NCBI GenBank assembly: GCA_025457615.1
Contig: JALOTZ010000003.1
Location: 145,614 to 209,613 of the forward strand
Length of the DNA: 64,000 nt
Origin: Verrucomicrobiota bacterium
Lineage (GTDB): Bacteria; Verrucomicrobiota; Verrucomicrobiia; Limisphaerales; DSYF01
Direction of reading: 5' to 3'
Part shown: positions 4,671 to 19,800 of the stretch, piece after piece
How the letters are laid out: each line of letters opens with the position of its first letter
Numbering within the stretch: position 1 is the first letter of the stretch
The notes under the pieces: generated by a model
Told to the model about the DNA's origin: nothing
Databases searched by the model: none
The model's input: only the letters and a program-made list of their open reading frames with translations
Position numbers and translations under genes: made by a program

Positions 4671-5396
4671 TCATGCAACCTGCGTGCGGAAGCGATCAAA
4701 CTCCTTTGGCAGCAGTTGCAGCAACTCCGCCGCGCTCAGGCCGTAAAGATACCAAGTCAGGTCAAGTTGGTTTAGCAGCGTTGCCAACCGCCGAGCCGCG
4801 CCGCGAACGTCCGAGCCTGCCCCGCGCTTGAAGGAGTCCTTCGTAGGGTCGTAATACAACTCCGTGGCAGCCTCCGCCACGGCGCGGTTGGTTACCAGTT
4901 CCTTCCGAGAGGCAAGCTGCTCGGCGATTTCACCGGGTTTCCACAGTGGATTGCACAGCATGGCAATCGCCCGCTTTGGCAGGTCGCGGTGCGCCCGTAC
5001 AATCAGGAAAGGACCGACAAGCAGATGCCGGTAGAACCGCTGGTGGTTGTCGAGAATTGGAAGCAGCCGCGCTTCGTCTTTCGGGTCCCGCCGGCCATTT
5101 CCATCCGCTGGGCAGACTTGGTCGAAGTAGAACAGCGTGAGCCAAGCCCACAGACCTTGGTCGCGCTCGGGGAGGTTGATTGCCGCTCTATCAACTAAAT
5201 CGTTGAAGAACAAGCCGGCGTCCAGCCGGTTGGTGAATACTCGCGGCAGTACCTCAACCTCCCCTGGCAGCTCCTCTGTCAACGCCGGGTCTTCGAGCAA
5301 TTCAACCGGTGGTGGAAGCGCAGGCTCCAAAGCCAACCGCCCTCGGTAGTTCGCGAACGCAGTCACTCCATCGGCGTTGAAACGACGTAGTCTCAT
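4671..5396 (-). CDS. Uncharacterised protein of the methyltransferase-GHKL-Vsr cluster (DUF6339-like)
   Basis: The 241-residue soluble protein begins MRLRRFNADGVTAFANYRG and contains NRLDAGLFFNDLVDRAAINL, WLTLFYFDQVCP, NHQRFYRHLLVGPFLIVRAH and a C-terminal RLATLLNQLDLTWYLYGLSA. The pattern looks like the DUF6339 family as I remember it, which has no known activity; I cannot confirm this. There is no signal peptide, membrane segment or recognised catalytic motif. It sits 14 bases after the 250-residue gene and directly before vsr, in an uninterrupted five-gene minus-strand run. A structural or regulatory part in a restriction-like system is inferred from context only. Confidence 0.75.
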   Translation of the reverse strand: MRLRRFNADGVTAFANYRGRLALEPALPPPVELLEDPALTEELPGEVEVLPRVFTNRLDAGLFFNDLVDRAAINLPERDQGLWAWLTLFYFDQVCPADGNGRRDPKDEARLLPILDNHQRFYRHLLVGPFLIVRAHRDLPKRAIAMLCNPLWKPGEIAEQLASRKELVTNRAVAEAATELYYDPTKDSFKRGAGSDVRGAARRLATLLNQLDLTWYLYGLSAAELLQLLPKEFDRFRTQVA

Positions 5397-5410: not shown

Positions 5411-6163
5411 CTAAAAAACCAGATCCAATTTGGCGCGCAACTCGTGCCGATGCGCGAATGTGGCCACCGCCTCATCAGTCCACGCTTCGCGATCCTGCTT
5501 CTGGTCTGGGTTTGGTAGCGGGGTGGAAACACCGAGATTTCGCGCAAACCGCACCCAGTCCGCTTGCCATCCCGGTTCCTCGTCGTCCTCAACCCACGCA
5601 TCTTCGATGAGGATGTGGGCCAAGATTCTCCGCAGGACTTCGGGATATACCAGCGACAGAAAGTGCTGCGAGCGAGCGAGGTCTTTCCACGTCGGTTTGG
5701 CATCTTTGTTCACCAGCAGACGCGGTGGATCGCTCTCCATATCGAGTTTCCAAAGCAGTTGGTCCAGCGCTTCCGGCACGGGCTCAAGCAACGGGCGGCG
5801 CTTGTCAGTAGCCTCACCTGCTTTCACAAACTGGATGCCATCTGCCTCGCCGAGCAGTTTGTGGTGTTCGTTGCCGGGCGGTTGCACAACGCGCACCCTA
5901 AACAGGATGCCATCCGGCACATCAAACTCGGTCAACCGCCTGTTGCTTGGGGGGCGCATGGCCGAAATGGTTCCCCATGCGAACTGCATCCAGAGGTTCT
6001 GCCGATGAGCCTCCAGCCAGACTTCGGCATTGCGAGGAAAGCGATAATCCGCCAACCGCAAGTCGGCATCGAAAACCCAAGTTCCCTGGTCCTCGCGGAG
6101 CGTGATGGATACGTCGCGCCGTTCAATCTTGCGACGCCCAGTGTAGTTAAACGTTCTCTTCAT
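5411..6163 (-). CDS. Uncharacterised 250-residue protein of the GHKL/methyltransferase cluster
   Basis: I do not recognise this protein. It is soluble and charged, starts MKRTFNYTGRRKIERRDVSI, and has an N-terminal half rich in beta-type segments (TWVFDADLRLADYRFP, VWLEAHRQNLWMQFAWG) and a helical C-terminal half ending AHRHELRAKLDLVF. The centre (LLVNKDAKPTWKDLARSQHF, then YPEVLRRILAHILIEDAW) reads like a helical scaffold. No nuclease motif is convincing. It starts inside the last codons of the GHKL ATPase gene (17-base overlap), so the two are translationally coupled. A dedicated partner of that ATPase is the simplest inference. Confidence 0.75.
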   Translation of the reverse strand: MKRTFNYTGRRKIERRDVSITLREDQGTWVFDADLRLADYRFPRNAEVWLEAHRQNLWMQFAWGTISAMRPPSNRRLTEFDVPDGILFRVRVVQPPGNEHHKLLGEADGIQFVKAGEATDKRRPLLEPVPEALDQLLWKLDMESDPPRLLVNKDAKPTWKDLARSQHFLSLVYPEVLRRILAHILIEDAWVEDDEEPGWQADWVRFARNLGVSTPLPNPDQKQDREAWTDEAVATFAHRHELRAKLDLVF

Positions 6164-8063
6164 CGGCTCCTTTCAACTCAATTGCGCGGACGACCAAGTC
6201 ACGCTTCTTGTCGAAACCACAAATGCCGAACTGGAAGTCCGGCTTTCGTAGTTCCAACTCGATGTAGTTTCCGTCTTCACGACTGACAATTACACCGTTG
6301 GCTTTCGGTTCTTGTCTGAGCGGCTGGCGTGTGAACACGAAATCGTCAGTCGCCCAGCGTTTGATCGCATTTCCACGGCGGACGGCATATGCAGCCTCAA
6401 TCCGGACCCGCACAGGAAACGACTCCGGCGGTGCGTCACCGGGTTTGAGAACGAAGCCGCCCTCCACTTGTCGGAGGTCAAATCGTCTCGGCTTTGGAGG
6501 CACGCCGCCAGGAGGCTCGCTCTGCTTGCCATCGTCACCGGGTTTCGACTTTTTTGCAGGCTCAGTTGGTCCTTCATCGGTTGGCAGGAAGAAAAGATCG
6601 AGCAGAAGCGTGGGATCGCCTTTCGTGTCGCGGGCATGGAGCGCCTGCATGATCTCAAACACGCTCCGCGTCACAAACTTGATGGCGTCCGGCCCGTAGA
6701 AATAGCGGTTGTGGAACTTCGGAGAGTCCTTCTGCCATTGCGTGTGATTGACGCCTTCCGCGTCACCTAGCAACCCGGCTAGCGGAGGATCTTCCACTTC
6801 AACCAAGGAGCGGCATCCCTGCAACTGCGGAGCACGCACATCTTTGATGAGAATGCCGTCACGCAGGAAAAGAGGGCGATAACCCGCATCACGGCAAGGC
6901 TCGATGTAAACGGTGAAGAAGGACATGGTTTCGGCTCTTCCATCCTTGGGCCGGACCCGGAGCGGAACCCGGACTCCAACACGCTGATTGGTTTCCATGC
7001 GAGTGCGAATTTGTGCCAGCGTGGCTTCCGGCAAGATCAATTCCCCGATCTTTCGCCAGTCTGGCGGTCTGGTTGGTTCTTCCGGCAGACTTACGATCTC
7101 TGCCGGTTTCGCGTATGCCGCCCATGCCGCGAACTGAACCACGGCTGCTTCCGAGGCGGGCAGCAGCGCTCTGTGAGCGGCGATGGACTCCGCGTCGATG
7201 CGGTGGTTGACGCTGGGGGCTTCAAGCTCGACCACCAACTCGCCGAGCAGGATTGGCCAGAAGAAATTCTGGACTACCCCGCGCCGCAGATCGTCCAAGC
7301 TCACGCGATCATCAACGCACGGCACCACCACCGAGAGGCCAGGTTTGTCCCGTCGCTTCAGCCCGAGGGTTTGCTCGAATCGGGCAATGAAATCAGAGTC
7401 AACCACGGGCAGCACCTGCTCTCCACCGCCGCTACGGCAACCGAACCAAGCATCGGGTTGGTAGTCCTTGCCCTGGATTGAGTGGCTGCGGACGACCGCC
7501 GAACCCATGAGCACTTTGGCTGGCGTATCGCTGCGGACACTCAAGCCAAACATCGAATGGAGTTTGCTGGCGGTGGGAAAGACCTGCTTGCCGATTCCCC
7601 AGCGTCCAAGGTTCTCGCCGGTCTTTGCCGAACGGCCGTCCGCCCTAAAGAAGCTGAAAAAGGCGTTGAACTCTGAATGCTCCAACCGCCATTCCGAAAC
7701 ATCCCCATTCAACCCTCTGGTTCCGAAGTCTTCGAAGGCGAGAAAACCAGTCTCGCCATTGAACAGTTCGGTGAAGCTGCCATTCCCCAACCCTTTCTCG
7801 AAGTGGACACGGGCCGGCTGGAATAAGTCCAATAGGGCGGTGCGAGCCTGCGCACTCGCCCCCGGCACCAATGCGATTCTCACAGTGACCTGCCGTTCGT
7901 TGGCGTCTCCGCGCATTGCTGCGTCGAGCGAGTTCTGAATTCCTTCGCGGACGAGAGCCTCGCTCAGGTTCTCCAAGCTCTCTGCCGTGAAGAAGGCGTC
8001 GTTCGCGGAGTCCCGCATTCGGTCGCAGGCTCGCCTTTCGTTGAAATGCCACTGTGGATTCAT
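6147..8063 (-). CDS. GHKL (MutL/Hsp90-type) ATPase of a methyltransferase-linked defence cluster
   Basis: This is a 638-residue protein. I chose the ATG at 8063 (MNPQWHFNERRACD) because it lies 11 bases after the methyltransferase stop; frame upstream of it would run into that gene. The N-terminal third carries all three GHKL boxes: the N-box ALVREGIQNSLDA (about residues 37-48), the G1 box FEDFGTRGL (about 110-118), and a GRWGIGK lid motif further on. Later parts include FFTVYIEPC and RNGDxx-type beta segments but no known domain. A proline- and lysine-rich linker precedes the last 120 residues. MORC/MutL-like GHKL ATPases linked to restriction-modification genes are known from comparative genomics. 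The expected role is an ATP-driven clamp that couples DNA recognition to the nuclease. Confidence 0.82.
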   Translation of the reverse strand: MNPQWHFNERRACDRMRDSANDAFFTAESLENLSEALVREGIQNSLDAAMRGDANERQVTVRIALVPGASAQARTALLDLFQPARVHFEKGLGNGSFTELFNGETGFLAFEDFGTRGLNGDVSEWRLEHSEFNAFFSFFRADGRSAKTGENLGRWGIGKQVFPTASKLHSMFGLSVRSDTPAKVLMGSAVVRSHSIQGKDYQPDAWFGCRSGGGEQVLPVVDSDFIARFEQTLGLKRRDKPGLSVVVPCVDDRVSLDDLRRGVVQNFFWPILLGELVVELEAPSVNHRIDAESIAAHRALLPASEAAVVQFAAWAAYAKPAEIVSLPEEPTRPPDWRKIGELILPEATLAQIRTRMETNQRVGVRVPLRVRPKDGRAETMSFFTVYIEPCRDAGYRPLFLRDGILIKDVRAPQLQGCRSLVEVEDPPLAGLLGDAEGVNHTQWQKDSPKFHNRYFYGPDAIKFVTRSVFEIMQALHARDTKGDPTLLLDLFFLPTDEGPTEPAKKSKPGDDGKQSEPPGGVPPKPRRFDLRQVEGGFVLKPGDAPPESFPVRVRIEAAYAVRRGNAIKRWATDDFVFTRQPLRQEPKANGVIVSREDGNYIELELRKPDFQFGICGFDKKRDLVVRAIELKGADEENV

Positions 8064-8074
8064 CGTTCTTGTTC

Positions 8075-9811
8075 CTATGCCGTTCTGAAGTCTACCCGCG
8101 CAATCTTCACTTCCTCGGCAAGCTGCGGGTTGCGATAGCACATGCCCGCCATCTGGGCTTCCGAGCAATAGAAGTCGTCATCGGCGAGTTCCTTGTTACG
8201 AAATCGTCTCCATGCTTCCCGGGCGATGGGCGCAAGCACCACCGGCCAGCCGCTGCGCTCGTAGTAAGGCGCGGTCAGCCTTGGCTCTAGTCTGGCCACT
8301 GGCGTGTATTCGTTCTCGTTCTTTCGGCAGATGGTTTCGCCGTGATCGAGTGCGCTGTCGGGATGCAGCCCGGCGTAGAGAAAGGCGATGGCAATCCACG
8401 CGCGTTTGAAAACGTCAGTTTCGACACGCCGTAGCGCCTGTGGTGGCAAATCAAGCAGCGGACGGACCCAGGCGACTGCCTGATCTTCCGTCACGGGCAG
8501 AGGCGCAGCGTCGAACGGGATGGCTTGATGCACAGGCTGGGCGGCAGTCAGGAAGTCGCGCACTTCTTCCGCGACCGCTTCGGCCACTATGGGCGGCACG
8601 GCGTTGCCGATGAGGCGGAACTGATGGGTGCGAGCCACGGGGAACCAGAACCAGTCAGGGAACGTCTGGATTCGCGCCGCCTCGCGCGGTGTGAGCGAAC
8701 GGTTCTGGTTCGGATGAATGAACATCAACCCGTCCTTGCTCAGATGGGCCACGATGGTGGAGCAAAGCTCGTCCCGGTGCTGGCGCTTGTAGCGGTCACT
8801 GAAGCAGGATCGGCTGTAGGTGAACTCCAGAGATTCCCCCCGCGCCTCCGCTTCACCGCTGTGCTCGCCTTGGCGCAGGCGGGCGAAGTCACGCAGATCA
8901 CGCTCGCTGTGCGGCCGGGCGCGGTGTGCGGTGAGATGCGACGCGCGCTCAATTTCCAAGATGGATTGCAGGTAGTGGCGCGCCGCCGCTCCACGCTCCG
9001 CCAGAAAGTCATTGCGCCGTTTCAAGTCGTAGTCGCATTCCTCGACGCCTCCGCCTGCCGGCACTTCAGGCAGATCGCCGATGGCATCCCAAAGCTTCGG
9101 TGTAGCAGCCGACGTGAGGAGGCTCTGATCAGATTCGGAGCGTGGGCAAGTTTCAGCACCATTCCTAAATGGAGCCTCGTGACCTCGGCTGCTACTTGAG
9201 AAGGCTCGCGCCGCGGGGCTCAACTCTCCCGCGAAGTATCCCGGAATGTCGTCACGCACGCCGATGACGAGTTGACGCCGACGCTTCTGCGGCACGCCGA
9301 GTTTCCAGGCTTCTTCAACCTGAGCTTGGACGCGGTAGCCCAGCTTGCGCGCCTCCGCCTGAACCATCGTGAAGAACTTGCCTTTCGCGGCGCTTTGGAG
9401 GCCGAGGACGTTTTCCATGACGAACACGCGCGGACGAAACGCGGCCACGTAGTCGAGGAAGTAACGGAAGAGGTAGCGGCGTTTGTCCCGGCGCACGCGC
9501 GAGCCGTGGTTGGCAGCATCCACCTGCCGCACGGTGCTGAAGCCCTGACACGGCGGCCCGCCAACGATGACATCCACACTGTTGACACCAATCCTGGCCG
9601 CCAATTCGTGAGGGGTGAAGCGCGAGAGGTCCTTGCAGAGGGCGAGCGTTTCCTTGCCGAAGTTCGCCTTGAAGGTGGCAATCGCCTGTTCGTTGAAGTC
9701 AACGGCGGCAAGGCACCGGAAACCGGCTCGCTCCATGCCAAGCGTGAAGCCGCCGCAACCGCAGAAGAGGTCGAGACAAGTCAGGGACTGAGTTGTTGTG
9801 TCCGTGGACAT
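8075..9811 (-). CDS. DNA (cytosine-5) methyltransferase with C-terminal extension
   Basis: The 578-residue protein carries the C5-methyltransferase motifs in order: I (LDLFCGCGGFTLGM, about 13-26), IV (GGPPCQGFS, catalytic Cys at about 88), VI (MENV, about 132), VIII (QKRRR, about 175), and X (LIGNAVPP, about 400-407). About 150 residues follow motif X (for example WVRPLLDLPPQALRRVETDV and RSGWPVVLAPIAREAWRRF), unlike plain Dcm enzymes; their role is unknown. Residues of about 204-238 come from a palindromic insertion (9102-9195) between motif VIII and the target recognition region. It heads the cluster methyltransferase, GHKL ATPase, two unknowns, Vsr. The start at 9811 follows a 240-nt structured leader. 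Vsr pairing suggests the target contains 5-methylcytosine prone to deamination. Confidence 0.92.
   Translation of the reverse strand: MSTDTTTQSLTCLDLFCGCGGFTLGMERAGFRCLAAVDFNEQAIATFKANFGKETLALCKDLSRFTPHELAARIGVNSVDVIVGGPPCQGFSTVRQVDAANHGSRVRRDKRRYLFRYFLDYVAAFRPRVFVMENVLGLQSAAKGKFFTMVQAEARKLGYRVQAQVEEAWKLGVPQKRRRQLVIGVRDDIPGYFAGELSPAARAFSSSSRGHEAPFRNGAETCPRSESDQSLLTSAATPKLWDAIGDLPEVPAGGGVEECDYDLKRRNDFLAERGAAARHYLQSILEIERASHLTAHRARPHSERDLRDFARLRQGEHSGEAEARGESLEFTYSRSCFSDRYKRQHRDELCSTIVAHLSKDGLMFIHPNQNRSLTPREAARIQTFPDWFWFPVARTHQFRLIGNAVPPIVAEAVAEEVRDFLTAAQPVHQAIPFDAAPLPVTEDQAVAWVRPLLDLPPQALRRVETDVFKRAWIAIAFLYAGLHPDSALDHGETICRKNENEYTPVARLEPRLTAPYYERSGWPVVLAPIAREAWRRFRNKELADDDFYCSEAQMAGMCYRNPQLAEEVKIARVDFRTA
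9102..9195. repeat. Palindromic element inserted in frame within the C5 methyltransferase gene
   Basis: A 24-base left arm beginning GTAGCAGCCGACGTGAGG at 9102 pairs with the right arm ending ACCTCGGCTGCTAC at 9195; 21 of 24 positions are complementary. The element adds residues of about 204-238 to the enzyme with no stop. Its ends resemble those of the element in vsr. Confidence 0.75.
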
Positions 9812-10051
9812 GAGCTGAAGCGCTCGCGAGTGCGTTCAGCCCTGTCGGGATGGCTTGCTGCCTGCGGTGGAACCCTTGGTGCCTGAAACAGAAGTGGGAC
9901 GCACTTACTTGCGTCCCAACTCAGGCACCTAGGAGGGCCCAACGCAGGAGCGCTTTCAGCGCGCCCCAATTGGGGCGCGCATCGAGCGCCGTCCTGCATT
10001 TCCGAAAGTTCCTAGGTTTCGAGTTGGACAGCAGCCGAAGCTACGCGAAAT
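9812..10051 (-). promoter_or_regulatory. Structured leader of the C5 methyltransferase gene (copy 1)
   Basis: From about 10051 down to the start codon at 9811 the minus strand matches the leader of the type III-like mod gene (13291-13520) in sequence and order. It opens with TTTCGCGTAGCTTCGGCTGC and CGAAACCTAGGAA. Next comes a long hairpin with GCAGGA/TCCTGC and GCGCGCCCC/GGGGCGCGC stems and the linker GGGCCCTCCTAGGTGCCTGA. A second hairpin has an outer stem GGTGCCTGA/TCAGGCACC and an inner stem GGGACGCA/TGCGTCCC. The match goes on through ACAGGGCTGA to near the ATG. Several stem pairs differ between copies while pairing is kept. It could be a cis-regulatory RNA or a mobile palindromic repeat. 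No coding capacity is evident in 9812-10175. Confidence 0.7.
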
Positions 10052-10175
10052 CAAATTGTGTTGTGGTCGTTAATTCATTCGTGTCGGTTAACGCGGCCAG
10101 CCTAGCGCAACCGGTGCGCTGGCGGCAACAGGCTCTCCCGCGATCTCGAGGGGAAATTCTCTTCTCGCTGGGGTG

Positions 10176-10580
10176 TCAAACCAGCCAGTTGATCTTGATC
10201 TCCTTCTCCACCGCTTTGAACTCCGGGTCGCCGGTGACGAGTTCGGCCTTGTGCTTCCGGGCCAGCGCGGCGGCGAAGGCGTCGGCCAGGCTGAGGCTTA
10301 AGCGCGATTTGAAGTCCGCCGCCACGTCGGCCAGTTCGCGGTCCGCCGGATGGAATTCAACAGGCAATGTGGGCAAATCACGGGCCACGTCCGCCCAGCG
10401 CGCGGCGCCGTCCTTGCGGAGGACCATGTATTTGACCTCGGCGTAGTTCACCTCGGTCATGTGCAGCGGCACGTCGCGCTGGCCGGCCCTTTCCAGCAGC
10501 GCGGCAACCTTGTCGTCGCCGGCTTCGCCCCGGAGAAACGCGAGCAGCGCAAAGCTATCGAGCACCGGTGCTGCGGGCAT
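10176..10580 (-). CDS. vapC: PIN-domain toxin, VapC type
   Basis: The 134-residue protein has the PIN ribonuclease layout: N-terminal LDSFALLAFLRGE with the first acidic residue, a mid acidic residue in HMTEVNYAEVKYMV, and LSLADAFAAALARKHKAELVTGDPEF with the later acidic cluster. I use the ATG at 10580, which gives MPAAPVLDSF and a normal VapC length. This start lies inside the end of the antitoxin gene (26-base overlap), the usual coupled arrangement. Such toxins cleave tRNA or rRNA when the antitoxin is lost. The catalytic residues look intact. The pair lies inside the defence island, between the two restriction-modification modules. Confidence 0.88.
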   Translation of the reverse strand: MPAAPVLDSFALLAFLRGEAGDDKVAALLERAGQRDVPLHMTEVNYAEVKYMVLRKDGAARWADVARDLPTLPVEFHPADRELADVAADFKSRLSLSLADAFAAALARKHKAELVTGDPEFKAVEKEIKINWLV

Positions 10581-10854
10581 GTTTGGCCTCCTCGATTTCC
10601 TTTTCCCGGCGTTTGTGCTCCGCCCACTCCTCCCCGAGCGGCTTGTCGCCGGGTTTGCGCTTGAGGATGCCACGCAGGCGGTTGATGGCGTGCCGGGTCA
10701 CCGGCTTCAGCAGGATGCCCTCGTCGGTGGCGGTGACGATGGCGCGGGTGCCGTCCTCAATGTGGTAGAGCTTGCGGAGCCGCAGCGGGATCACCACCTG
10801 GCCTTTGGTGGTGAACCAGACGGTGTCGGCTGGCGATGTCGTATTCACGAACAT
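10555..10854 (-). CDS. AbrB/SpoVT-type antitoxin of the PIN toxin
   Basis: This 99-residue protein has an N-terminal swapped-hairpin AbrB DNA-binding domain (VWFTTKGQVVIPLRLRKLYH, then GTRAIVTATDEGILLKPV). A basic helical tail (GILKRKPGDKPLGEEWAEHK, then RREKEIEEAKHA) should wrap around the toxin. It is translated just before the PIN toxin. Directly upstream lies a perfect palindrome overlapping a plausible promoter (10861-10900), which fits the autorepression known for this class. It has the size expected of an AbrB-type VapB antitoxin. Confidence 0.87.
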   Translation of the reverse strand: MFVNTTSPADTVWFTTKGQVVIPLRLRKLYHIEDGTRAIVTATDEGILLKPVTRHAINRLRGILKRKPGDKPLGEEWAEHKRREKEIEEAKHARSTGAR

Positions 10855-10860
10855 CAGTAT

Positions 10861-10900
10861 GACTTTTCTAAAAAGTCCGTCAACATCTTTCTAGTAAGAA
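10861..10900 (-). promoter_or_regulatory. Probable promoter and operator of the PIN/AbrB pair
   Basis: GACTTTTCTAAAAAGTC at 10861-10877 is a perfect palindrome with a three-base centre. A related half-site, CTTTCTAGTAAG, lies about 24 bases further upstream of the gene. On the minus strand a TTGACG hexamer precedes the palindrome. A -10-like sequence 17 bases on would fall almost at the start codon, so the transcript may be nearly leaderless. The segment is clearly more AT-rich than its surroundings. Confidence 0.5.
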
Positions 10901-11022
10901 AACCACACGAGAACAGAATCCGGAAGGAAACCCGGCTGGCGGCGCAGGTCAGGCCCCGCGCCTGACGCTGGCGACCGACACCTCGCTCAACTGGAGACAG
11001 GCGGAACGCCTCGTCCTACGCC

Positions 11023-11460
11023 TCAGCGAAGGGCGCTTGGCCGGTCGTCGCGCGGCGGACGATGGTCCCGGTTGCCACCACCGCCCGGGCCGCGGCCTTC
11101 GCCCTGTCTGCCGCCACCGGCACCGCCCCCGCCGCCGCCAACGCGCTGCACCGGTGTCGGTTTGATGACCGGCCGGCTCTCGGCGTTCAACGGCAGCACA
11201 AGGCGGAAGCCGAGATGGTGGTAGGGGTGATCTGGGTCTTGCGGACCGCGAAAGCAAGACGGGTTGCGATTGGAGACGCGACGATGGCCGTTCTCGCCGT
11301 TATACCATTACCTCCCCGCATGCCGCGATACGGCTTGCCGTCGGGCATGAAGCTCCCGCTGGCGGGGCCGGGCGGATGGTTCGTGGGGCTGTAGGAATAG
11401 TAGTCCCGTCCATACCAGTCGTTGACGAACTGCCAGACGTTGCCCGCCATGTTATAACTC
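11023..11460 (-). pseudogene. Truncated, frameshifted formylglycine-generating-enzyme-like gene
   Basis: On the minus strand NMAGNVWQFVNDWYGRDYYS and PPGPASGSFMPDGKPYRGMR match the C-terminal core of sulfatase-modifying (FGE-type) domains. At GGN the frame breaks. In the next frame the family pattern resumes as YNGENGHRRVSNRNPSCFRG and HHLGFRLVLPLN, followed by a glycine-rich tail and a stop at 11023. One base appears to be missing near 11300. Nothing of the N-terminal two thirds remains, because the ROK kinase gene ends just upstream. It is a remnant, probably of a secreted SUMF1-like protein, and fits the decayed sulfatase fragment at 3661-3960. Confidence 0.82.
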
Positions 11461-11507
11461 CACCTTTGCCTGGCGGGCCTTGGACGGGCCAGGCCAGGGC
11501 CCCGTCT

Positions 11508-12557
11508 TCAGGCTCCGTGCTTGTGGCGGTAGAGCGCCACCAGGGCGGCGCCGATGGCTTGGGAGAGCTCGCCCAGTTCGGCCGAGACGATCTTGAGCGT
11601 GTCGCGTTGCTGGGGCCAGAGATAGGGCCGGGCGGTCTCGCGCACGATGCGCAGGTAACGCTCGCGGAATTCCGGCGTGGTCGCCTCGTGATCCATCAAG
11701 CCGCCGCCGATGATGAAGATCCCCGGGTCCAGCGCCATCACCAGGTTGGCCACGTGGATGCCCATGACGCGCGCCTGGAAATCGAAGATCTCCATCGCCA
11801 GCGGGTCGCCTTGTTGCGCACGGCCCCGGAGCGAGAGCGCCTTGTCCTTGGTCGTGCCGGGCGCGGTGTGCAGCTCGTGGCCGGGATACCTGGGCAGTCG
11901 TTCCATCAGCAGATGACCCAGACCGGAGATCGTCGTGTACGCCTCGACGCAACCCCAGTCGCGTCCACAGCCGCAGAGAAGCGGTTGGCCGTTGAGACCG
12001 AGCAGTTGCAGCGGCACGGGCATGTGGCCGGCCTCCATGCCCGCCAGCGTGTCGCCGTCCAGGCACATGCCGTCCGCGCCGACGAACGCCGCGCCGAGGC
12101 CGGAGCCGGGCATCAGCATGGCGACGGAAGCGTTGGACTTGCCCCGGGCAAGCTTGGCCTCGGCGACACCGCCGTAATTGCCGTCGTTCCCCACGCACAG
12201 CGGCACAGGGTGTCCGATCTGCTGGGCGAGGGCGTTCCGGTAATCCTCGTAAACGTTCCAGCCGCAGAAACTGGCGGGCAGGTTGGGCGACTTGCCGAAT
12301 ACGCCATAGCGCTCATACGGCCCGGGAATGGCGAGCCCGACGCCGGCGACCTGCGACCACTCGAGCTGGTTCTGCGCGAGGAAATCGCCCGCACCGCCGA
12401 TCCAGGCGGCGATGACGCCCTCACGTCCGTTGTGCGCGTTGGTGGAGCGCTGCAGCACCTTGGTGCTCACGGCGTCCCCGTTCTCAAAGACCGCGGAGAA
12501 CTTGGTCGTGGTCGCACCGCTGTCGGTGCCGAGGAAAATGTCCGGTTTCGGGCTCAT
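11508..12557 (-). CDS. ROK-family sugar kinase
   Basis: This 349-residue protein has an N-terminal phosphate-binding loop (FLGTDSGATTTKF), the sugar-contact region GLAIPGPYERYG, CVGNDGNYGGVAEAKLARGK with the catalytic Asp, GSGLGAAFVG, and the ROK zinc motif CGCGRDWGCVE, and ends GGGLMDHE...AALVALYRH. Most such enzymes phosphorylate glucose, N-acetylglucosamine or related hexoses in the cytoplasm. No N-terminal winged helix is present, so it is a kinase rather than a ROK repressor. The start at 12557 (MSPKPDIFLG) is preferred; a start four codons upstream is possible. It stands alone in the defence island with no sugar genes nearby, so its substrate cannot be guessed. Confidence 0.87.
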   Translation of the reverse strand: MSPKPDIFLGTDSGATTTKFSAVFENGDAVSTKVLQRSTNAHNGREGVIAAWIGGAGDFLAQNQLEWSQVAGVGLAIPGPYERYGVFGKSPNLPASFCGWNVYEDYRNALAQQIGHPVPLCVGNDGNYGGVAEAKLARGKSNASVAMLMPGSGLGAAFVGADGMCLDGDTLAGMEAGHMPVPLQLLGLNGQPLLCGCGRDWGCVEAYTTISGLGHLLMERLPRYPGHELHTAPGTTKDKALSLRGRAQQGDPLAMEIFDFQARVMGIHVANLVMALDPGIFIIGGGLMDHEATTPEFRERYLRIVRETARPYLWPQQRDTLKIVSAELGELSQAIGAALVALYRHKHGA

Positions 12558-12655
12558 GCAGGATGTCATCCGTCGGGCCGGAATGTGTTCAACCGCCGGG
12601 CAAAAGGAAAGCTTGCAATCGGTGCGGCATCCTCCCGATCGAGGGGGATGCCTGC

Positions 12656-12925
12656 TCAATAGACCTCGTCATGGGTGCCGATGTCGGTGAACACCACCCG
12701 ATTCTTGGTGGCGAATAGAAAAAGGACCCGAACATTGTATTCAACGGAGAAACTCCAAAACTCCGCCAGATCGCCTGAGAGTTTGTGCGTTCGCAGGCGC
12801 GCGTCAAACGGGTCCTCCTGAAAGATCTCCACTCGCTTCCAGAAACTCTCCTCCAATCGTTTACGGCCTTCGATGCGCTTCTTGAAGGCCCGCTTGAAGG
12901 ACGAACTGAAGGCGATCCGCGTCAT
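12656..12925 (-). CDS. RelE/YafQ-type mRNA interferase toxin
   Basis: The 89-residue basic protein (MTRIAFSSSFKRAFKKRIEG, LRTHKLSGDLAEFWSFSV, NVRVLFLFATKNRVVFTDIG, THDEVY) has the compact RelE-superfamily arrangement, including the conserved KL.G....W.F....N.R region and a C-terminal IGTHDEVY typical of the YafQ/RelE-StbE group. Such toxins cut mRNA in the ribosome. It overlaps the upstream antitoxin gene by four bases (ATGA). It lies at the boundary between the ROK kinase and the second structured leader. Confidence 0.87.
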   Translation of the reverse strand: MTRIAFSSSFKRAFKKRIEGRKRLEESFWKRVEIFQEDPFDARLRTHKLSGDLAEFWSFSVEYNVRVLFLFATKNRVVFTDIGTHDEVY

Positions 12926-13134
12926 TCCGTCAGGGACTTCTTCAGCTCGCTGAGGGAACTGGAAAACTTTAGATCGCCACGCTTCATCTCCACGATACTG
13001 CGCCGTCCGCTGGCTTTGATTTCCCGGCGTCGATCCTCGACCAACGCGCGTTCGAGCAAGGACTTCAGCTCCAGCTTTTCCTCCGAGGAGCAGCTTCGGA
13101 TCTCTTCGACCAGCGCGGCAAATGTGGCGCTCAT
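12922..13134 (-). CDS. Antitoxin partner of the RelE-type toxin
   Basis: The 70-residue protein (MSATFAALVEEIRSCSSEEK, LELKSLLERALVEDRRREIK, MKRGDLKFSSSLSELKKSLT) is helical and highly charged, with an N-terminal helical part and an extended C-terminus likely to bind the toxin. The pattern is that of small uncharacterised antitoxins found directly before RelE-like genes. No classic ribbon-helix-helix motif is obvious. Its identification rests mostly on the four-base overlap with the toxin gene. The 13135-13290 stretch upstream contains nothing else I can identify. Confidence 0.72.
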   Translation of the reverse strand: MSATFAALVEEIRSCSSEEKLELKSLLERALVEDRRREIKASGRRSIVEMKRGDLKFSSSLSELKKSLTE

Positions 13135-13290
13135 GGGGCCACCATAATGCCCGGGCCCCTTGGAATCAACCTTTGCGCCCCGGATCTTCTGTCCGGCCCA
13201 ATCCCCGCGCTTGTCGCCCCACCCGGATTCGGGCTATGTTCGCCGCGTCCGGAGAAATCAAACGACCAGAAAACCCATTTAACCAAAATC

Positions 13291-13520
13291 ATTTCGCGTA
13301 GCTTCGGCTGCTGTTCACCTCGAAACCTAGGAAATTTCGTACAGAGGACAGCGTTTGAAGTGCGCCCCAGCCGGGGCGCATTGAAAGCGTTCCTCTGTGG
13401 GCCCTCCTAGGTGCCTGAGGTGGGGCGCAAGTAAATGCGTCCCATTTCATTTCAGGCACCAAAGAACCCACGGAGACAGTCACCAGACAGGGCTGATTCG
13501 CGCGCGAGCGATCTCAGCCC
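13291..13520 (+). promoter_or_regulatory. Structured leader of the type III-like mod gene (copy 2)
   Basis: This 230-nt segment ends at the mod start codon and is homologous to the leader of the C5 methyltransferase gene (9812-10051), in the same orientation relative to the gene. Hairpin 1 (about 13350-13398) has an ACAGAGGA/TCCTCTGT outer stem and a TGCGCCCC/GGGGCGCA inner stem. Hairpin 2 (about 13410-13460) has GGTGCCTGA/TCAGGCACC outside and GGGGCGCA/TGCGTCCC inside. Where the copies differ in stems the partner base usually differs too. Shared unpaired blocks include CGAAACCTAGGAA and GGGCCCTCCTAGGTGCCTGA, the latter containing an anti-Shine-Dalgarno-like CCTCCT. No clear Shine-Dalgarno sequence precedes the ATG. 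Confidence 0.72.
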
Positions 13521-16500
13521 ATGCCCGAGAGCAATGCATTGCAGCGGTTGCAGGCGCTTCTGCGCGACCTGTTCCAATACGACTACGCCGACCTGGACTT
13601 CGGCATCTACCGGCTGCTGCGGTTGAAACGCGGCGAGGTCGAGGCGTTCCTGACCGAGCAACTGCCGCGACGGGTGGACGAGGTGTTCAAGGGGGCGGTC
13701 GGTGATGTTCATGCGCAACTGGAGCGCGAGCTTGCCGGTTTGGCTGAACGGGTGAGGCAGGAGATCGACGCCGAGGCGCTCGCGCCGACCGGGGAGATCA
13801 AGGAGGATCACCGGCACCAGAAGGCGAAGGCGGCGCGGGAGTTGATTGCGGCTTACGAGGCCAAGCGTCAGCAGGTTCAGGAGATTCAGGTCAGCGAGGA
13901 GCAGAAGGCGGAGGTGTTCAATCATCTCTGGGCGTTCTTCTCGCGCTACTACGAGGCGGGCGATTTCATCCCGAAGCGACGCTACGGGGCGCGGGAAACC
14001 TACGCCGTACCCTACAATGGCGAGGAAGTCTTCTTCCACTGGGCCAACCGCGACCAGCACTACGTGAAGACCGCCGAGAGCCTGCGCGATTACGCCTTCA
14101 CCGTGGGCATGCTCGGCCAACCGTGCCGGGTGCGGTTCACGCTCACCGAAGCGAGCCTGCCACCCGGCAACACCAAGGGCGACACGCGCTACTTCTTTCC
14201 GCTGCCGAAGGAAGCGGCGTGGGACAAGGCCACGCGCATGTTCACGCTGCCGTTCCACTACCGGCTGCCCACCGAAACGGAGATCGAGAAACACGGCAAG
14301 AACAGCCGGCTGCAGGAATCCGTCCTGCAAGCGGCGCTGCCGAAGATCATTGAGGCCGTGCCCGAGGCCGGCTTGAAGGCGCGGCTCGCCGAAATCGTGG
14401 AGCCGAAGCAAAACGAGGAAACGAGCCTGCTTCTGAAGCGGCTGCGCCACTTCTGCCGCAAGAACAGCAGCGACTATTTCATCCACAAGAACCTCGACGG
14501 TTTCCTGCGGCGCGAGTTGGAGTTTTACCTCAAAGACCAAGTGCTGCATCTGGCCGATCTCGACGGCGACCTGCCGGGCAAGCAGCGCACGCTGCGGGTG
14601 ATCCGGAAACTGGCCGAGGAAGTAATCCAGTTCCTCGCGCAGATCGAGAACGTCCAAAAACGGCTGTTCGAGAAGCGCAAATTCGTCCTGAAAACCGACT
14701 ACCTCGTGCCCATCCAGAACGTCCCGCGCGAATTGTGGAAGGAAGTTGCCGGCAACGCCGGTCAGTTGGCCGCGTGGAAAGAGTTATTCGCCATCGACCC
14801 GCCTGCCGATCAGCGGGCAGGGTCGAAGAAGGTGAACGAGAAGTTCCTGGCGGAGCATCCGACGCTGGTGGTGAACACCGCGCATTTCAATGCGCCTTTC
14901 AAGGAGCGGCTGCTGACCGCATTCGATGATGTGGACGAAGCAACCGACGGGCTGCTGATTTGCTCAGAGAATTACCAAGCCCTGCGTTTTCTCCTGCGCA
15001 AATGCGCCGCCGGAGTTGATTGCATTTACATTGATCCGCCATACAACACCGGCGATTCCCAGATCCCTTACAAGAACGGCTATCTCTTCTCCTCGTGGGT
15101 TGCGTTGATGGAGGGCCGGCTTACGGAAGCAATGAAGCTCGTGACGAAAGACGCGATCCTGTTCATCGCCATAGATGATTTTGAGATGGCCGATCTCTGC
15201 CAGGTTATGGACCGAGAGTTTCCATACCTGCGCAGGGAGATGATTGTCGTCAACCATCACCCACAGGGAGGCAAAGCCAAGACCTTCGCGACAACGCACG
15301 AATACATGCTTGTGTGTGTGCGAAGGGACTGCGCAAGGGCACTCGCCGGCAGGGAAGACTCTGAGACTACCGAGCGGCGTCCGTTCAAGCGCAGTGGCAC
15401 GGCGGAGAGCAATTTCAGGAAAGGCAGACCCAATAGTTTCTACGCGGTATTGGCAGACCCCGAGACAAAGAAGGTTGTTGGTCTCGAACCGCGGCCGGAT
15501 GGCGACTATCCAACAGGTCCAACCGAAGACGGTCGCATCCGCATATACCCGGTAGGAGAGCAAGAAGAGGAGCGTGTGTGGCGCCGCTCCTACGAATCGG
15601 CTCTCGGCCTCCTCCGCGAGGGCAAGTTGGTGTGCAGTGACGCGATGACGGTTTACCAATTGATTGAGGCTGGGGATAGAACGCCTGCCCTCTTTAGCAA
15701 CTGGGTTGATCGCCGTTACAACGCTGGAACGTATGGCGCAAACCTCCTTGCTGACATCATCGGAAAACACAACCCGTTTGCTTATCCCAAGTCCATACAC
15801 ACGGTCGGCGATGCGCTCTTTGCCGGCAGGCTTGAGGATGACAATGTGTGCTTGGACTTCTTCGGCGGGTCAGGCACGACCGGCCATGCGGTCATCAATT
15901 TGAACAGAGAGGATGGCGAGCAGCGCAAGTTCATCATAGTCGAGATGGGTGAGCACTTCGATACCGTGCTCGTGCCTCGTATCCAGAAAGTGATGTTCAC
16001 TCCCGAATGGAAAAGCGGCAAGCCGGTGCGGATGGCGACGAAGGAGGAAGCCGAGCGGACGCCGCGTTTGGTGAAAGTGCTGCGGTTGGAGGGCTACGAG
16101 GACGCCCTGCACAACTTGGTCTCGGATGAGACGCTCGAACGCGAAGCGCCGCGCGCAAAGGCGATCAAGGGCAAGGTTGGCGACGACGCTTACCGGCTGA
16201 CCTACATGGCGCGGCTGCCGGTGGAGGCGAGCGCGAGCATGTTGAATCTGGCGAAGCTGGAACATCCGTTTGCCTACACCATCGAGGTGCTCGGCGAGGA
16301 CGGGCCGCGCACGGAGACGGTGGATTTGGTGGAGACGTTCAACTTCCTCTACGGCCTGCACGTCCAGCGTATCGAGAGGTGGCGCGACGAGGCCGCCAAG
16401 CGGGACTACCGCGCGGTCAAGGCGAAGAAGGCCGACGGGCGGCGCGTGTTGGTGCTGTGGCGCGACATGGACAAGCTTGATCCCGCCGTCGAGCGGAAGT

Positions 16501-16628
16501 TTCTGGAGGCGCGGCTGAAGCAGGACGGGCCGTTCGACGAGGCGTGGATCAACGGCGACTGCGCCGTGCCGGGTGTGCGGTCGTTGGACGGGCTGTTTAA
16601 GCGGTTGCTGGAGGAGGAAGAACGGTGA
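13521..16628 (+). CDS. Type III-like adenine-specific DNA methyltransferase (Mod)
   Basis: This is a 1035-residue beta-class amino-methyltransferase. Catalytic motif IV, DPPYNTG, is at about residue 505 and precedes the S-adenosylmethionine motif FGGSGTTGHA at about 781, the order seen in type III Mod proteins. The first 470 residues (coiled segments such as KAARELIAAYEAKRQQVQEI, then FFHWANRDQHYVKTAESLRD and YFFPLPKEAAWDKATRMFTL) and the last 200 are not part of the fold. They should include target recognition and Res contacts. Mod is larger than classic EcoP enzymes (about 650) but normal for the Mod-helicase pairs of many environmental bacteria. It starts immediately after the structured leader and is followed, 232 bases later, by the helicase-nuclease. 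It probably methylates adenine on one strand of an asymmetric site. Confidence 0.92.
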   Translation: MPESNALQRLQALLRDLFQYDYADLDFGIYRLLRLKRGEVEAFLTEQLPRRVDEVFKGAVGDVHAQLERELAGLAERVRQEIDAEALAPTGEIKEDHRHQKAKAARELIAAYEAKRQQVQEIQVSEEQKAEVFNHLWAFFSRYYEAGDFIPKRRYGARETYAVPYNGEEVFFHWANRDQHYVKTAESLRDYAFTVGMLGQPCRVRFTLTEASLPPGNTKGDTRYFFPLPKEAAWDKATRMFTLPFHYRLPTETEIEKHGKNSRLQESVLQAALPKIIEAVPEAGLKARLAEIVEPKQNEETSLLLKRLRHFCRKNSSDYFIHKNLDGFLRRELEFYLKDQVLHLADLDGDLPGKQRTLRVIRKLAEEVIQFLAQIENVQKRLFEKRKFVLKTDYLVPIQNVPRELWKEVAGNAGQLAAWKELFAIDPPADQRAGSKKVNEKFLAEHPTLVVNTAHFNAPFKERLLTAFDDVDEATDGLLICSENYQALRFLLRKCAAGVDCIYIDPPYNTGDSQIPYKNGYLFSSWVALMEGRLTEAMKLVTKDAILFIAIDDFEMADLCQVMDREFPYLRREMIVVNHHPQGGKAKTFATTHEYMLVCVRRDCARALAGREDSETTERRPFKRSGTAESNFRKGRPNSFYAVLADPETKKVVGLEPRPDGDYPTGPTEDGRIRIYPVGEQEEERVWRRSYESALGLLREGKLVCSDAMTVYQLIEAGDRTPALFSNWVDRRYNAGTYGANLLADIIGKHNPFAYPKSIHTVGDALFAGRLEDDNVCLDFFGGSGTTGHAVINLNREDGEQRKFIIVEMGEHFDTVLVPRIQKVMFTPEWKSGKPVRMATKEEAERTPRLVKVLRLEGYEDALHNLVSDETLEREAPRAKAIKGKVGDDAYRLTYMARLPVEASASMLNLAKLEHPFAYTIEVLGEDGPRTETVDLVETFNFLYGLHVQRIERWRDEAAKRDYRAVKAKKADGRRVLVLWRDMDKLDPAVERKFLEARLKQDGPFDEAWINGDCAVPGVRSLDGLFKRLLEEEER

Positions 16629-16860: not shown

Positions 16861-19800
16861 ATGAGACTGGAACACGCGCTGGTTCTGAACCGGTATTTTC
16901 ACGCCCTGTTGGATGCGCGTGAGCTGACCGAGTTGAAGCAGCCGATGAACGTGCAGGAAGGCCGGGCGGCGGACGGGCAGAGCTACTTCTACGGGGCGCT
17001 GTTGGGGCGGGCGCAGGACGCGGCTTTGCGGGACAAGCTGGCGGAGTATGACGCGCGCGTGATGGGTTACGAGGCGCGGCTGGCGAAAGCGCGCGGCCAG
17101 TTTGCGTTCAAGTATTTCCAGTACCTCGGCCTGCTTTACACCGAAATCTGCCTCGACCGGCTGACGTCCGAGCCGGCGGCCTTCCTGGCTGACTTGAATG
17201 CGTTCCTCCAACGCCAGAAGCGCGCCGAACCAGCGCTGCACGAGTTTACGGCGTTCGAGCCGGATGATCTGCGGCGGCTGGCATTCTTCATGGCGACCGG
17301 CAGCGGCAAGACCTTGCTGCTTCATGTAAACCTGTGGCAGATGCTCCATTACCTGCGGCATGGCCGGCATCCCGAAGCGCTGGTGAGGCGCGCGGACAAG
17401 CGGCGGGAGTTCGATTCCATCCTGCTCATCACGCCCAATGAGGGGCTCTCGGAACAGCACTTGAAGGAGTTCCACCTCAGCGGAGTGGACGCGGTGCTGC
17501 TCGTGGAAGACCGGTCGGGACAGCAGTCGTTCGAGCCCCGGGTGCGGATCATTGAGATCAGCAAGCTGGCCGAGGCCGCCAGCGGCGAGGGGGTGAGCGT
17601 GGCACTGGAGTCGCTGGGCAGCGCCAATCTGGTGTTCGTGGACGAGGGACACAAAGGCACCGGCAGCGAAGCGCGGACGTGGAAGAACCGGCAACAGGCA
17701 TTGGGCAAGGACGGATTCATTATGGAATACAGCGCGACGTTTGCGCAGGCCATTGGCGCGGCGGGACGGAAGGTGCAGGAGGAGTTGAGGGTCGAATACG
17801 GCAAATCCATCCTCATGGACTATTCCTACCGGCATTTCTATCACGATGGCTACGGGAAGGATTTCCGGGTGTTGAACCTGTCGCGGGCGCGGGAGACCCA
17901 GGCCCACGACTTGTTGGTTGGCGGCCTGCTGGCGTTCTACCAGCAATACCACCTGTTCCATAAGAACCAGGACACCTACCGGCCCTACAACCTGGAGAAG
18001 CCGCTCTGGGTGTTTCTCGGTTCCAGTGTCAAGGCCATCTACACGCGGGACGGTCGCAGCCGCAGCGACGTGGCGCAGGTGGTGGAGTTTCTTCGCAGGT
18101 TCCTGGAAGAGCCAGACTGGGCCACCCGCACCATGCGGTCATTCCTCAACGGGGAAAGTGGCTTTCAGGATGCCCAGACCCGGGGCGATTTGTTCAAACC
18201 GTTGATGGAGGAACTCGCCGGACGCGATGCCGTCCGGCTTTACGGGGAAATCTGCCAGCGGCTTTTCCACGGCGCGGGGGGGCTGGAGGTGTGGGAACTC
18301 AAGAACGCGGACGGCGAGCTGGCGCTGCGGGTTTCAACTTCATCCGGGAGGGAACGCCCCTACTTTGCCGTGATCAACATCGGCGACGTGAGCGCGTTCA
18401 AGAAGCACCTGGAGGAGAACCTGAAGCTGGACGTCCACGAGGACAAGTTCTGCGGCTCGCTGTTCGGCGAGATTGACCGGCCCGATTCAGCGGTCAACGT
18501 ACTGGTCGGCGCGAAGAAGTTCATCGAGGGCTGGTCGAGTTGGCGCGTGTCCGCGATGGGCTTGCTGAACATCGGGCGGGGCGAAGGTCCGCAGGTTATC
18601 CAGTTGTTCGGCCGCGGTGTCCGGTTGAAGGGCAGGCAATGGTCATTGAAGCGCAGCACGCCGCCACGTCCGGGGGGATTGGAGAATCTGGAGAAGCTGC
18701 TGATCTTCGGCTGGAACGCCGAATATCTCCAAGCGTTCCGCGACATGATCGCGGCCGAGGAAATTCAGGAGGAACTGGAGTTGTGGGTGCGGCTGGTGAA
18801 TCCGCAACCGCCTCTGCCCATTCCCGTGCCGCGGGCCGGCTATCGTGTGGAATCGGAGACGTGGCAACTGGAGGCAACGGCCCTGCAAGTCCTGGTGGAC
18901 CTTACTCCCACGGTGACAGCCATCGCGGGGAAGGAGATCGCCGCAGGACACTTGGGACGCGGCCGGGAGGTGGATCTTGGAGCGGAGGGCGAGGGCGGCG
19001 TGCTGGATTTCGACGCCCTGTATGCGGACCTCTTGGAATACAAGGCGCAGCGCGGTTACCAGAATCTGCTGGTGCGTCGGCAGGTGTTGCCGGATTTGCT
19101 GTCCAGGAACCACTTGCGCCTGGTGGAAACGGATGCCTGCGACCCGCAACGTCTGCAGGAAGGAGCAAGCCGGCTGCTGCGAGCTTGTCTGGATCGGTTC
19201 TACAGCCAGAAGGCCAGGCAGGCCGAAGCCGCTCAACTCGAACCTCAACCCCTGGTCTTGCGGGAACGCGCCACGACCGTTTACCGGGTGCGAGCGCCGG
19301 TGGACATCCTGGCCGAGATCAAGAATCTGGTGAAGCGGCGGAAGTTCGACAGCGAGGGCGAAAAGCCAATCCCCCGATTGCACATCGACCAGAGCCTGTT
19401 CAACCCGCTGCTCCTCAACCCCGCCGACTTCAAGCTGGAGGACGTTTCGGTCAGTCCTCCGGGTCTGGGCAAGAACGAGCGCAACTTCGTGAGCGACCTG
19501 CGGTCGTTCTGGGCCGCACATCGGGCCGAAGAACCCTATCGACACTACGAGATCCACCTGCTGCGCAACATGCCCAAGGTGGGCGTCGGATTCTTCATCC
19601 ACAGCGGGTTTTACCCGGACTTCATTCTGTGGGCTCGGGACCGACGGGACAGGACCACCTACGTCCGCTTCCTGGATCCGCACGGGATGCACCATGGCGG
19701 TCTGATGGGCAACGAGAATCGTTTTGCGGCATTCCGGCAATTGCAGGTGGTAAGCCGGCAGCCCGAGTTCCAGCGGCGCAAGATCAGGCTGGATGGTTTC

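Follow-up and report, generated by a model that had tools for sequence, protein, structure and literature searches.

Two methyltransferase leaders of a Verrucomicrobiota bacterium belong to a large family of probable two-state RNA leaders associated with defence operons

Introduction

Riboswitches, whether attenuating or translational, follow a well-known general design, and the EAR and put elements are cis-acting RNAs of processive antitermination. Restriction-modification (R-M) systems are controlled by C proteins or antisense RNAs, and the control known for them is mostly gene-specific. It is still an open question how the various defence systems of bacteria are coordinated with one another. 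In this work, a stretch of 64,000 nucleotides (nt) from a Verrucomicrobiota bacterium of the order Limisphaerales was analysed (assembly GCA_025457615.1, contig JALOTZ010000003.1, positions 145,614 to 209,613; hereafter the window), in which similar structured leaders precede a C5 cytosine DNA methyltransferase gene and a type III-like mod gene. These leaders belong to a large, apparently undescribed family of RNA leaders, and the element that they carry is rather probably a transcribed, cis-acting two-state RNA switch, that is, a riboswitch-like attenuator. The sequence features that support this are its transcribed position, a pseudoknotted core, two covarying and mutually exclusive pairings, a terminator-like hairpin, a hairpin at the start codon and an association with defence genes.

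The two leaders of the window

The leader of the C5 methyltransferase gene occupies positions 9812-10051 on the minus strand and the mod leader positions 13291-13520 on the plus strand (both strands were read directly). An earlier note, made from the letters of the DNA, had described them as homologous from end to end and equally oriented towards their genes. This is borne out: blastn aligns them with 79% identity (query 1-238 of 240), both run exactly up to the ATG (at 9811 for the C5 methyltransferase and at 13521 for mod), and the orientation relative to the gene is the same. The stems quoted in that note are also correct (GCAGGA/TCCTGC versus CAGAGGA/TCCTCTG, and GGGACGCA/TGCGTCCC versus GGGGCGCA/TGCGTCCC), and the linker GGGCCCTCCTAGGTGCCTGA is indeed identical in both copies. 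By minimum free energy (MFE), the two leaders fold far more stably than dinucleotide shuffles (z = -6.16 and -7.27), and none of the 200 shuffles was as stable.

Core structure and covariation

A covariance model of 170 positions, R1, was built from 19 copies. From 5' to 3', the core consists of the UUCG-capped hairpin P1, helix A, hairpin P2 (GAAA/UUUC), the arm P3 in three parts, the 3' strand of helix A, and hairpin D with a U-rich tail. The loop of P2 pairs with a distant linker, and this pairing, helix B, forms a pseudoknot. In the order, 135 distinct copies were read together with their downstream genes, and three of them (L040, L043, L071) were without a usable gene at a contig end. Their 3' ends fall into three classes. 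Class I (59 copies with a gene), to which the window's 3' ends belong in type, carries strand C3 (GGCAC, pairing with GTGCC), strand T and hairpin P5, and the open reading frame (ORF) as called starts 50-100 nt past the core in 56 of the 59. In 41 of the 51 copies of class II, which have the core and D, the ORF begins 12-45 nt further on, and the same distance is seen in 20 of the 22 copies of class III, a subfamily with a near-constant helix B. A rule combining the helix C strand, a P5-like motif and a score above 100 bits places 50 of the 59 copies in class I; nine others (L027, L029, L038, L076, L079, L085, L093, L113, L142) are there by a hand list alone, which comprises 12 copies and was made after sequences and proteins had been viewed. 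The features of the two window copies and their genes are as follows.

8075-9811, minus strand: C5 cytosine DNA methyltransferase (PF00145, 5.2e-62)
10099-10128, minus: C5 leader, sigma70-like promoter TTGCCG (10128-10123), 18 nt, TAGGCT (10104-10099), by promoter pattern
9877-10052, minus: C5 leader, core with P1, helix A, P2/B pseudoknot, P3, hairpin D and strand C3 (R1, 179.5 bits)
10021-10027, minus: C5 leader, helix A 5' strand CCAACTC, partner GAGTTGG at 9922-9916 (covariation, 100 copies)
10004-10020, minus: C5 leader, P2 GAAA/TTTC, whose loop CCTAGG (10016-10011) pairs with CCTAGG at 9933-9928 as helix B (own-versus-swapped pairing)
9944-9997, minus: C5 leader, arm P3 with P3a GCAGGA/TCCTGC, P3b GCGCT/AGCGC and P3c CGCGCCCC/GGGGCGCG (covariation)
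9886-9918, minus: C5 leader, terminator-like hairpin D GGGACGCA/TGCGTCCC with U-rich tail (terminator scan)
9859-9877, minus: C5 leader, strand T, complement of the P3a 3' strand in the alternative fold (own duplex -23.2 kcal, copy L053)
9812-9842, minus: C5 leader, hairpin P5 abutting the start codon (-14.7 kcal, tail of 0 nt)
13521-16628, plus strand: type III-like Mod, an N6/N4 methyltransferase (PF01555, 4.7e-21; PADLOC MTase_III, 8e-175)
13211-13240, plus: mod leader, sigma70-like promoter TTGTCG (13211-13216), 18 nt, TATGTT (13235-13240), by promoter pattern
13290-13461, plus: mod leader, core (R1, 177.6 bits)
13315-13321, plus: mod leader, helix A 5' strand TCACCTC, partner GAGGTGG at 13417-13423 (covariation)
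13322-13338, plus: mod leader, P2 GAAA/TTTC, whose loop CCTAGG (13326-13331) pairs with 13406-13411 as helix B (own-versus-swapped pairing)
13342-13397, plus: mod leader, arm P3 with P3a CAGAGGA/TCCTCTG, P3b and P3c TGCGCCCC/GGGGCGCA (covariation)
13422-13453, plus: mod leader, hairpin D GGGGCGCA/TGCGTCCC with U-rich tail (D statistics; alone not called by the terminator scan)
13467-13479, plus: mod leader, strand T CCCACGGAGACAG, pairing with the P3a 3' strand in the alternative fold and containing a GGAG Shine-Dalgarno-like run (own duplex -17.7 kcal, copy L054)
13490-13520, plus: mod leader, hairpin P5 abutting the start codon (-18.7 kcal, tail of 0 nt)
16861-19935, plus: type III Res, partner of mod (PADLOC REase_III, 1.5e-135)

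Among the 19 copies, changes on both sides were found in 22 of 48 pairs, against a shuffled mean of 11.0 (0/500). When 100 copies were aligned to the model, 94.1% of the cells were paired versus 77.1% after shuffling, with 672 double-change cells versus 161 and a covariation of 0.488 versus 0.177 (0/500 in all three cases), and the covariation was lost when partners were slid by 1-3 columns. This alignment was fitted to the model; a parse of the strands by sequence motif agrees with it. Helix A is paired in 99.0% of the cells of the 100 copies with double changes at 7/7 pairs, and in the motif-parsed copies all seven pairs are formed in 48/56 of class I, 32/45 of class II and 18/18 of class III (the parse of helix A failed for 13 of the 135 copies). 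The longest paired run of helix B was longer with the own partner than with swapped ones in class I (5.93 versus 3.77), class II (5.42 versus 3.50) and class III (6.89 versus 5.97). The P2 stem occurs as GAAA/TTTC and as AAAA/TTTT. Hairpin D, as aligned, is paired in only 80.1% of the cells. A G-U pair between columns 65 and 106 is conserved in 14 of the 19 copies and in 77 of the 100, which speaks for RNA over single-stranded DNA. The element is therefore a conserved, structured 5' leader with covarying pairs, as in riboswitches. Regarding the CCTCCT within the linker, the earlier note was right about its presence, but the anti-Shine-Dalgarno character attributed to it need not hold, since part of this run pairs in the covarying helix B.

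Putative strand exchange and the start-codon hairpin

In class I, the 3' strand of P3a is also complementary to strand T, which lies behind helix C. Over 53 class I copies, the P3a/T duplex has an energy of -17.3 kcal/mol with the own partner versus -13.1 ± 0.41 kcal/mol with swapped ones (0/2000), and in 51 of the 53 the own T partner beats the mean of dissimilar donors. The same was found in further copies, mostly from other families and selected by eye for 3' ends resembling those of class I (21 of 24 parsed), where the values are -21.0 versus -15.7 ± 0.61 kcal (0/5000, n = 21). The longest T helix reaches 16 consecutive pairs (L182). Since both P3a and the T helix covary, the strand that they share covaries with two different partners. 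The T fold, which is nested with strand C and D, crosses helix A; in nested terms, the two states would therefore be mutually exclusive. By these statistics, class I leaders carry a putative expression platform with exclusive pairings, P3a versus T, and the computed energies of the two folds are nearly equal (mean difference -0.1 ± 4.9 kcal, with crude constraints, 53 copies). A T helix was also sought in class II and is weak there (11/2000 swaps as good, in a set that still included some class I-like copies).

Hairpin P5 lies directly against the start codon in all 56 copies tested, within 0-2 nt of it in 52, and its median energy is -16.0 kcal versus -10.6 kcal for shuffled spacers.

Hairpin D resembles a terminator in all three classes: its stem has median energies of -15.0, -12.4 and -13.8 kcal in classes I, II and III, and of the 10 bases that follow it, 5 or more are T in 49/51, 31/39 and 15/18 copies, respectively. 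An exchange between the 3' strands of P3c and D was also considered. Swaps were as good in 0/1000 cases for class I, 23/1000 for class II and 323/1000 for class III, so that this exchange is not claimed in general. In a distant genus (L300-L302, L308, L310-L312), the strand before the U-run complements the 3' strand of P3c, mimicking its 5' strand (own -16.2 versus swapped -13.0; 7/5000 swaps as good; 7 copies), and the pairing statistics indicate that this genus has a second kind of strand exchange ahead of the U-run. Most of these copies lie before surface-type genes, as judged by eye, and L311 lies before a methyltransferase-like ORF.

Genes downstream of the leader

The genes scanned were 58 of the 59 of class I (L101 was left out because of a doubtful start), 48 of the 51 of class II and 21 of the 22 of class III. 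Single-linkage BLAST sorts the class I genes, of which the order has 59, into 13 families that are possibly distant relatives of each other. Pfam assigned the 58 scanned genes to N6_N4_Mtase (18), MmeI_Mtase (10), ResIII (9), N6_Mtase (5), C5 DNA_methylase (4), PLDc_2 (4), Eco57I (3), Mrr_cat (3), HSDR_N_2 (3), RadC (2) and BrxA (1), and PADLOC agrees with Pfam on the class I genes. The types seen are type III and type II methyltransferases, IIG, type I methyltransferase, C5 methyltransferase, DrmMI/IIG-like, HsdR, Mrr-type IIG, HSDR_N/type I, BrxA, HmaA and PLD-SNF2 helicase. The own profile matches were viewed for about 22-23 class I genes, while the assignment of the remainder rests on the tallies and the BLAST families. 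Those viewed singly (the two window genes and L023, L063, L011, L082, L072, L006, L025, L007, L084, L052, L027, L033, L067, L008, L029, L020, L046, L060, L078, L024 and L019) cover all families except RadC. One copy, L061, had been placed in the family of L007 by a wrong frame; its right frame stops after 131 codons and matches the PLD-helicase family.

RadC is the first gene of operons of the order RadC, type III methyltransferase, type III Res under a class I leader, as seen by profile in L217 (on the contig of L009; 1966-7368) and by tblastn to the methyltransferase and Res in L074. Outside the order, L285 has such an operon by tblastn to the methyltransferase only, the stretch ending within that gene. 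By these matches, every class I family found in the order is thus tied to defence: it has a member that matches R-M or other defence profiles or, in the case of RadC, heads an R-M operon.

With the simpler 3' ends of classes II and III, the core precedes mostly other genes, often of surface type. The 48 class II genes include Ig_3 (7), NHL (4), RCC1-type (3) and Laminin_G_3 (3) domains, and at 1e-10 PADLOC matched at most 5 of the 48; these include L118 (DndC), L125 (a PsyrT/DpdF-like helicase) and L114 (a REase_III fragment). In class III, 3 of the 21 genes are N6_N4 methyltransferases, and the others are mostly without a match or have surface-type domains. Distant subfamilies precede secreted-type, glycan-type and methyltransferase-like genes, named by eye from the sequence. 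Signal peptides were assessed by eye only throughout.

Promoter-like sequences and gene context

A sigma70-like promoter pair ends 41-56 nt upstream of the element, and both window copies have one. The pattern, TTGNNN-(16-19)-TANNNT or two TATAAT-like variants, was written after inspection of the upstream sequences and is found in 72 of 134 copies versus 4.1 ± 1.9 in shuffled sets (maximum 10, 100 sets). A stricter consensus promoter scan of the C5 and mod leaders found none. For 32 class I copies, 450 nt of sequence could be read to either side; all 32 have a sense ORF of at least 110 codons that starts within 120 nt downstream, and 10 have a divergent ORF on the 5' side. In addition, many of the order's copies have one of two alternative words, ATGTAA/G (44 occurrences) or GACCAG (43), 16-27 nt ahead of the core and within the predicted transcript.

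Distribution of the element

In the bacterium's own genome, blastn finds four separate copies and R1 finds seven at 55 bits or more, all seven with an ORF downstream. Methyltransferase or R-M-like genes follow five of them, namely the C5 methyltransferase, two mod genes, a DrmMI/IIG-like gene (matched by PADLOC only, with no Pfam match) and a type III methyltransferase on the same contig outside the window; the other two head ORFs with signal-peptide-like starts, as judged by eye. PF01555 has nine matches in this genome, and the element stands in front of three of them.

The element was found in 104 of 320 genomes of the order (53 of 154 good assemblies), with 1-8 copies each, in 33 of 387 genomes of a phylum sample including the own genome, where some are weak matches only (24-60 bits), and in 27 of 150 genomes of an Opitutaceae-like family. 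These copy numbers are lower bounds because just the best few candidates were scored per genome (8 in the order, 7 in the phylum sample and 18 in the Opitutaceae-like family). A pattern scan of named genomes gave at least 117 stretches. The 80 listed are mostly labelled Verrucomicrobiota (Limisphaerales, Opitutaceae and Puniceicoccales among them), and a few are labelled Phycisphaerae, Planctomycetota, Victivallales, Deltaproteobacteria, Pseudomonadota or Actinomycetota, these being record labels, mostly of metagenome-assembled genomes. Records of Ereboglobus sp. PH5-10 and Geminisphaera colitermitum TAV2 are among those with the element. L186, the one stretch labelled Proteobacteria, holds the copy already listed as L033 in the order, judging by its score and its recognition as a duplicate. 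Thus the covariance model and the genome searches bear out the earlier idea of a shared structured leader with covarying pairs, placed in one orientation and preferentially before defence genes.

Against Rfam 15, window positions 9700-13700 gave no family over the gathering threshold (best E 0.49), nor did 14 related loci, among which the best was a sub-threshold Acido-Lenti-1 match outside the element of L125. Spread by plasmids or phages was considered as well: the mod leader has no blastn match in plasmid and phage collections, and a pattern scan of viral contigs (IMG/VR) gave two stretches, L314 and L315, both with the element. In L315 it precedes a methyltransferase-like ORF that is 73% identical to the ORF of L181 and 52% identical to that of L024, a methyltransferase by PADLOC.

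Leader evolution and neighbouring genes

Within one genome, leaders of different gene families have a mean identity of 74.3% (40 pairs). Between genomes, the mean is 69.2% (250 pairs) if the leaders belong to the same gene family and 67.5% (1413 pairs) if they belong to different ones; these are raw means without a significance test, with L061 misplaced. The pattern fits a resident leader recruited by incoming genes, or a concerted adaptation to a shared partner.

Between the two leaders of the window, just 5' of the C5 leader and on the same strand, lies a PIN-domain ORF (10176-10673, minus; PF01850, 5.2e-18), toxin-like by family only. After the C5 methyltransferase gene, the ORF at 6147-8168 (minus) has no Pfam family and matches only the PADLOC candidate PDC-M33A (1.2e-13), and the ORFs at 4671-5396 and 5411-6163 have no match in Pfam or PADLOC.

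Proposed switch model and alternative explanations

According to the proposed model, a core made stable by binding a metabolite, a second messenger or a protein would keep P3a closed and T free, and the free T would expose a GGA(G) Shine-Dalgarno-like run, so that the operon would be translated. If the core opened, T and strand C could close a long hairpin around D, by which translation would fall, and D would cut transcription; the polarity of the ON state is only proposed. One signal could in this way set the expression of different R-M, bacteriophage exclusion (BREX) and similar operons and, via the simpler 3' ends, of surface-type genes. In this model, the core would bind a signal, T would sequester the initiation region and D would act as a terminator.

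Several observations weigh against this model. The computed folds decide little, because the MFE fold is already T in 34 of 53 defence-class copies (P3a in 19) and that of the mod copy switches between T and P3a with the amount of coding sequence added. Moreover, relatedness among the copies persists in the shuffle and swap controls. Shuffled spacers also yield start-adjacent hairpins, though weaker ones than P5. A Shine-Dalgarno-like run precedes P5 in only 39 of 56 copies, and its distance from the ATG amounts to tens of bases unless P5 loops it out. Concerning hairpin D, the terminator scan gave one site in the C5 leader versus 0.6 expected by chance and none in the mod leader (0.8 expected), which for the window by itself is no significant result, and the U-rich tail could be a pseudoknot linker instead. 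The 3' module is also not restricted to defence. Ten genes behind class I-like 3' ends in the Opitutaceae-like family, chosen by eye from 24 loci, comprise six R-M or PLD-helicase genes, one without assignment and three of surface-glycan type (two of glycosyltransferase family 9 and one acyltransferase 3; L326, L329, L317). From these assignments, the class I 3' module is strongly tied to defence, yet not solely.

Of the explanations offered in the earlier note, timing of methylation is not supported, since genes for HsdR, BrxA, RadC, HmaA and PLD-helicases likewise stand behind the leader, and surface-type genes behind the core. Another of them, a mobile palindromic repeat that landed twice, would, like a single-strand recombination site near genes (of the kind of repetitive extragenic palindromes or attC), agree with the hairpins, the several copies and the mobile defence genes as neighbours. 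This reading is extremely improbable and was rejected on copy number, orientation and the promoter-like sequence upstream: genomes carry 1-8 copies rather than many in both orientations and any context, a sense ORF follows at a near-fixed distance, as it does behind all seven good copies of the own genome, the G-U pairs are conserved and the mod leader lacks matches in the plasmid and phage collections. A different possibility is that the core is bound by a shared RNA-binding protein, or by the host's defence proteins, which would repress or activate all targets. The highly conserved unpaired stretches and the UUCG-capped P1 would suit such a partner, as would the greater likeness of leaders of different families within one genome, expected with one shared partner. 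We consider it unlikely; a search covering NusG identified no candidate protein, and control by one target's own protein is unlikely because 13 BLAST families share the leader.

A further reading, less likely still, is that of a processive antitermination RNA, in which the core would modify RNA polymerase for read-through of long accessory operons (R-M, surface, glycan). The target classes resemble those of known antitermination systems, many target genes are long, and the terminator-like D must be passed to reach the gene. On the other hand, D is followed by the covarying T/P3a exchange and by P5 at the ATG, which suggest an effect on translation. The own genome, 94% complete, has a single NusG match, so that no specialised NusG paralogue is seen there, although this weighs little. 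The two-state switch stays the preferred reading. An extension of it, offered tentatively, is that the element represents a phylum-wide riboswitch class with its own cellular signal, which would regulate the cell surface together with anti-phage operons (R-M, BREX, Hma, PLD-helicase); the surface targets, under that same tentative reading, would be secreted-type proteins, heptosyltransferases and acyltransferases. If this were true, a single RNA-sensed signal would set both the envelope barrier and the DNA barrier.

Comparison with known systems

The Pedo-repair RNA motif, a candidate structured bacterial RNA listed for Pedobacter (PMC2864571), was considered for its name. It resembles the element in being such a candidate, and was set aside, since the passages found on it name no Verrucomicrobia and the name does not appear in the Rfam scans.

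Full-text searches of a collection of PMC papers showed no report of such a leader among the matches listed. A survey of 2017 reportedly described 224 candidate RNAs, among which an earlier sighting is possible. We know of no precedent for different defence operons under one RNA module. The interest of the element lies in the fact that one RNA module without an Rfam match in the scans stands, within one order, before 13 BLAST families of defence-operon genes and carries a covarying, putatively two-state platform. If confirmed, it could give a handle on the signal that arms defence systems, allow new defence operons to be found by the leader alone, and link defence with surface genes.

With riboswitches, the window element shares a promoter, a conserved pseudoknotted core, a terminator-like hairpin and a strand exchange near the start codon; it differs from them in its targets, which are R-M/BREX and surface-type genes and not metabolism, and in having no Rfam family over threshold. 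Like EAR and put, it is a cis-acting leader RNA of accessory or exopolysaccharide genes, but it has no Rfam match over threshold and possesses a covarying switch strand and a start-codon hairpin. With control by C proteins or antisense RNAs it would have in common the purpose of tuning R-M gene expression, whereas one leader type serves 13 BLAST families in place of a gene-specific regulator. To our knowledge, the kind of element, a structured cis-regulatory leader, is known, and its target set of different defence operons is apparently new.

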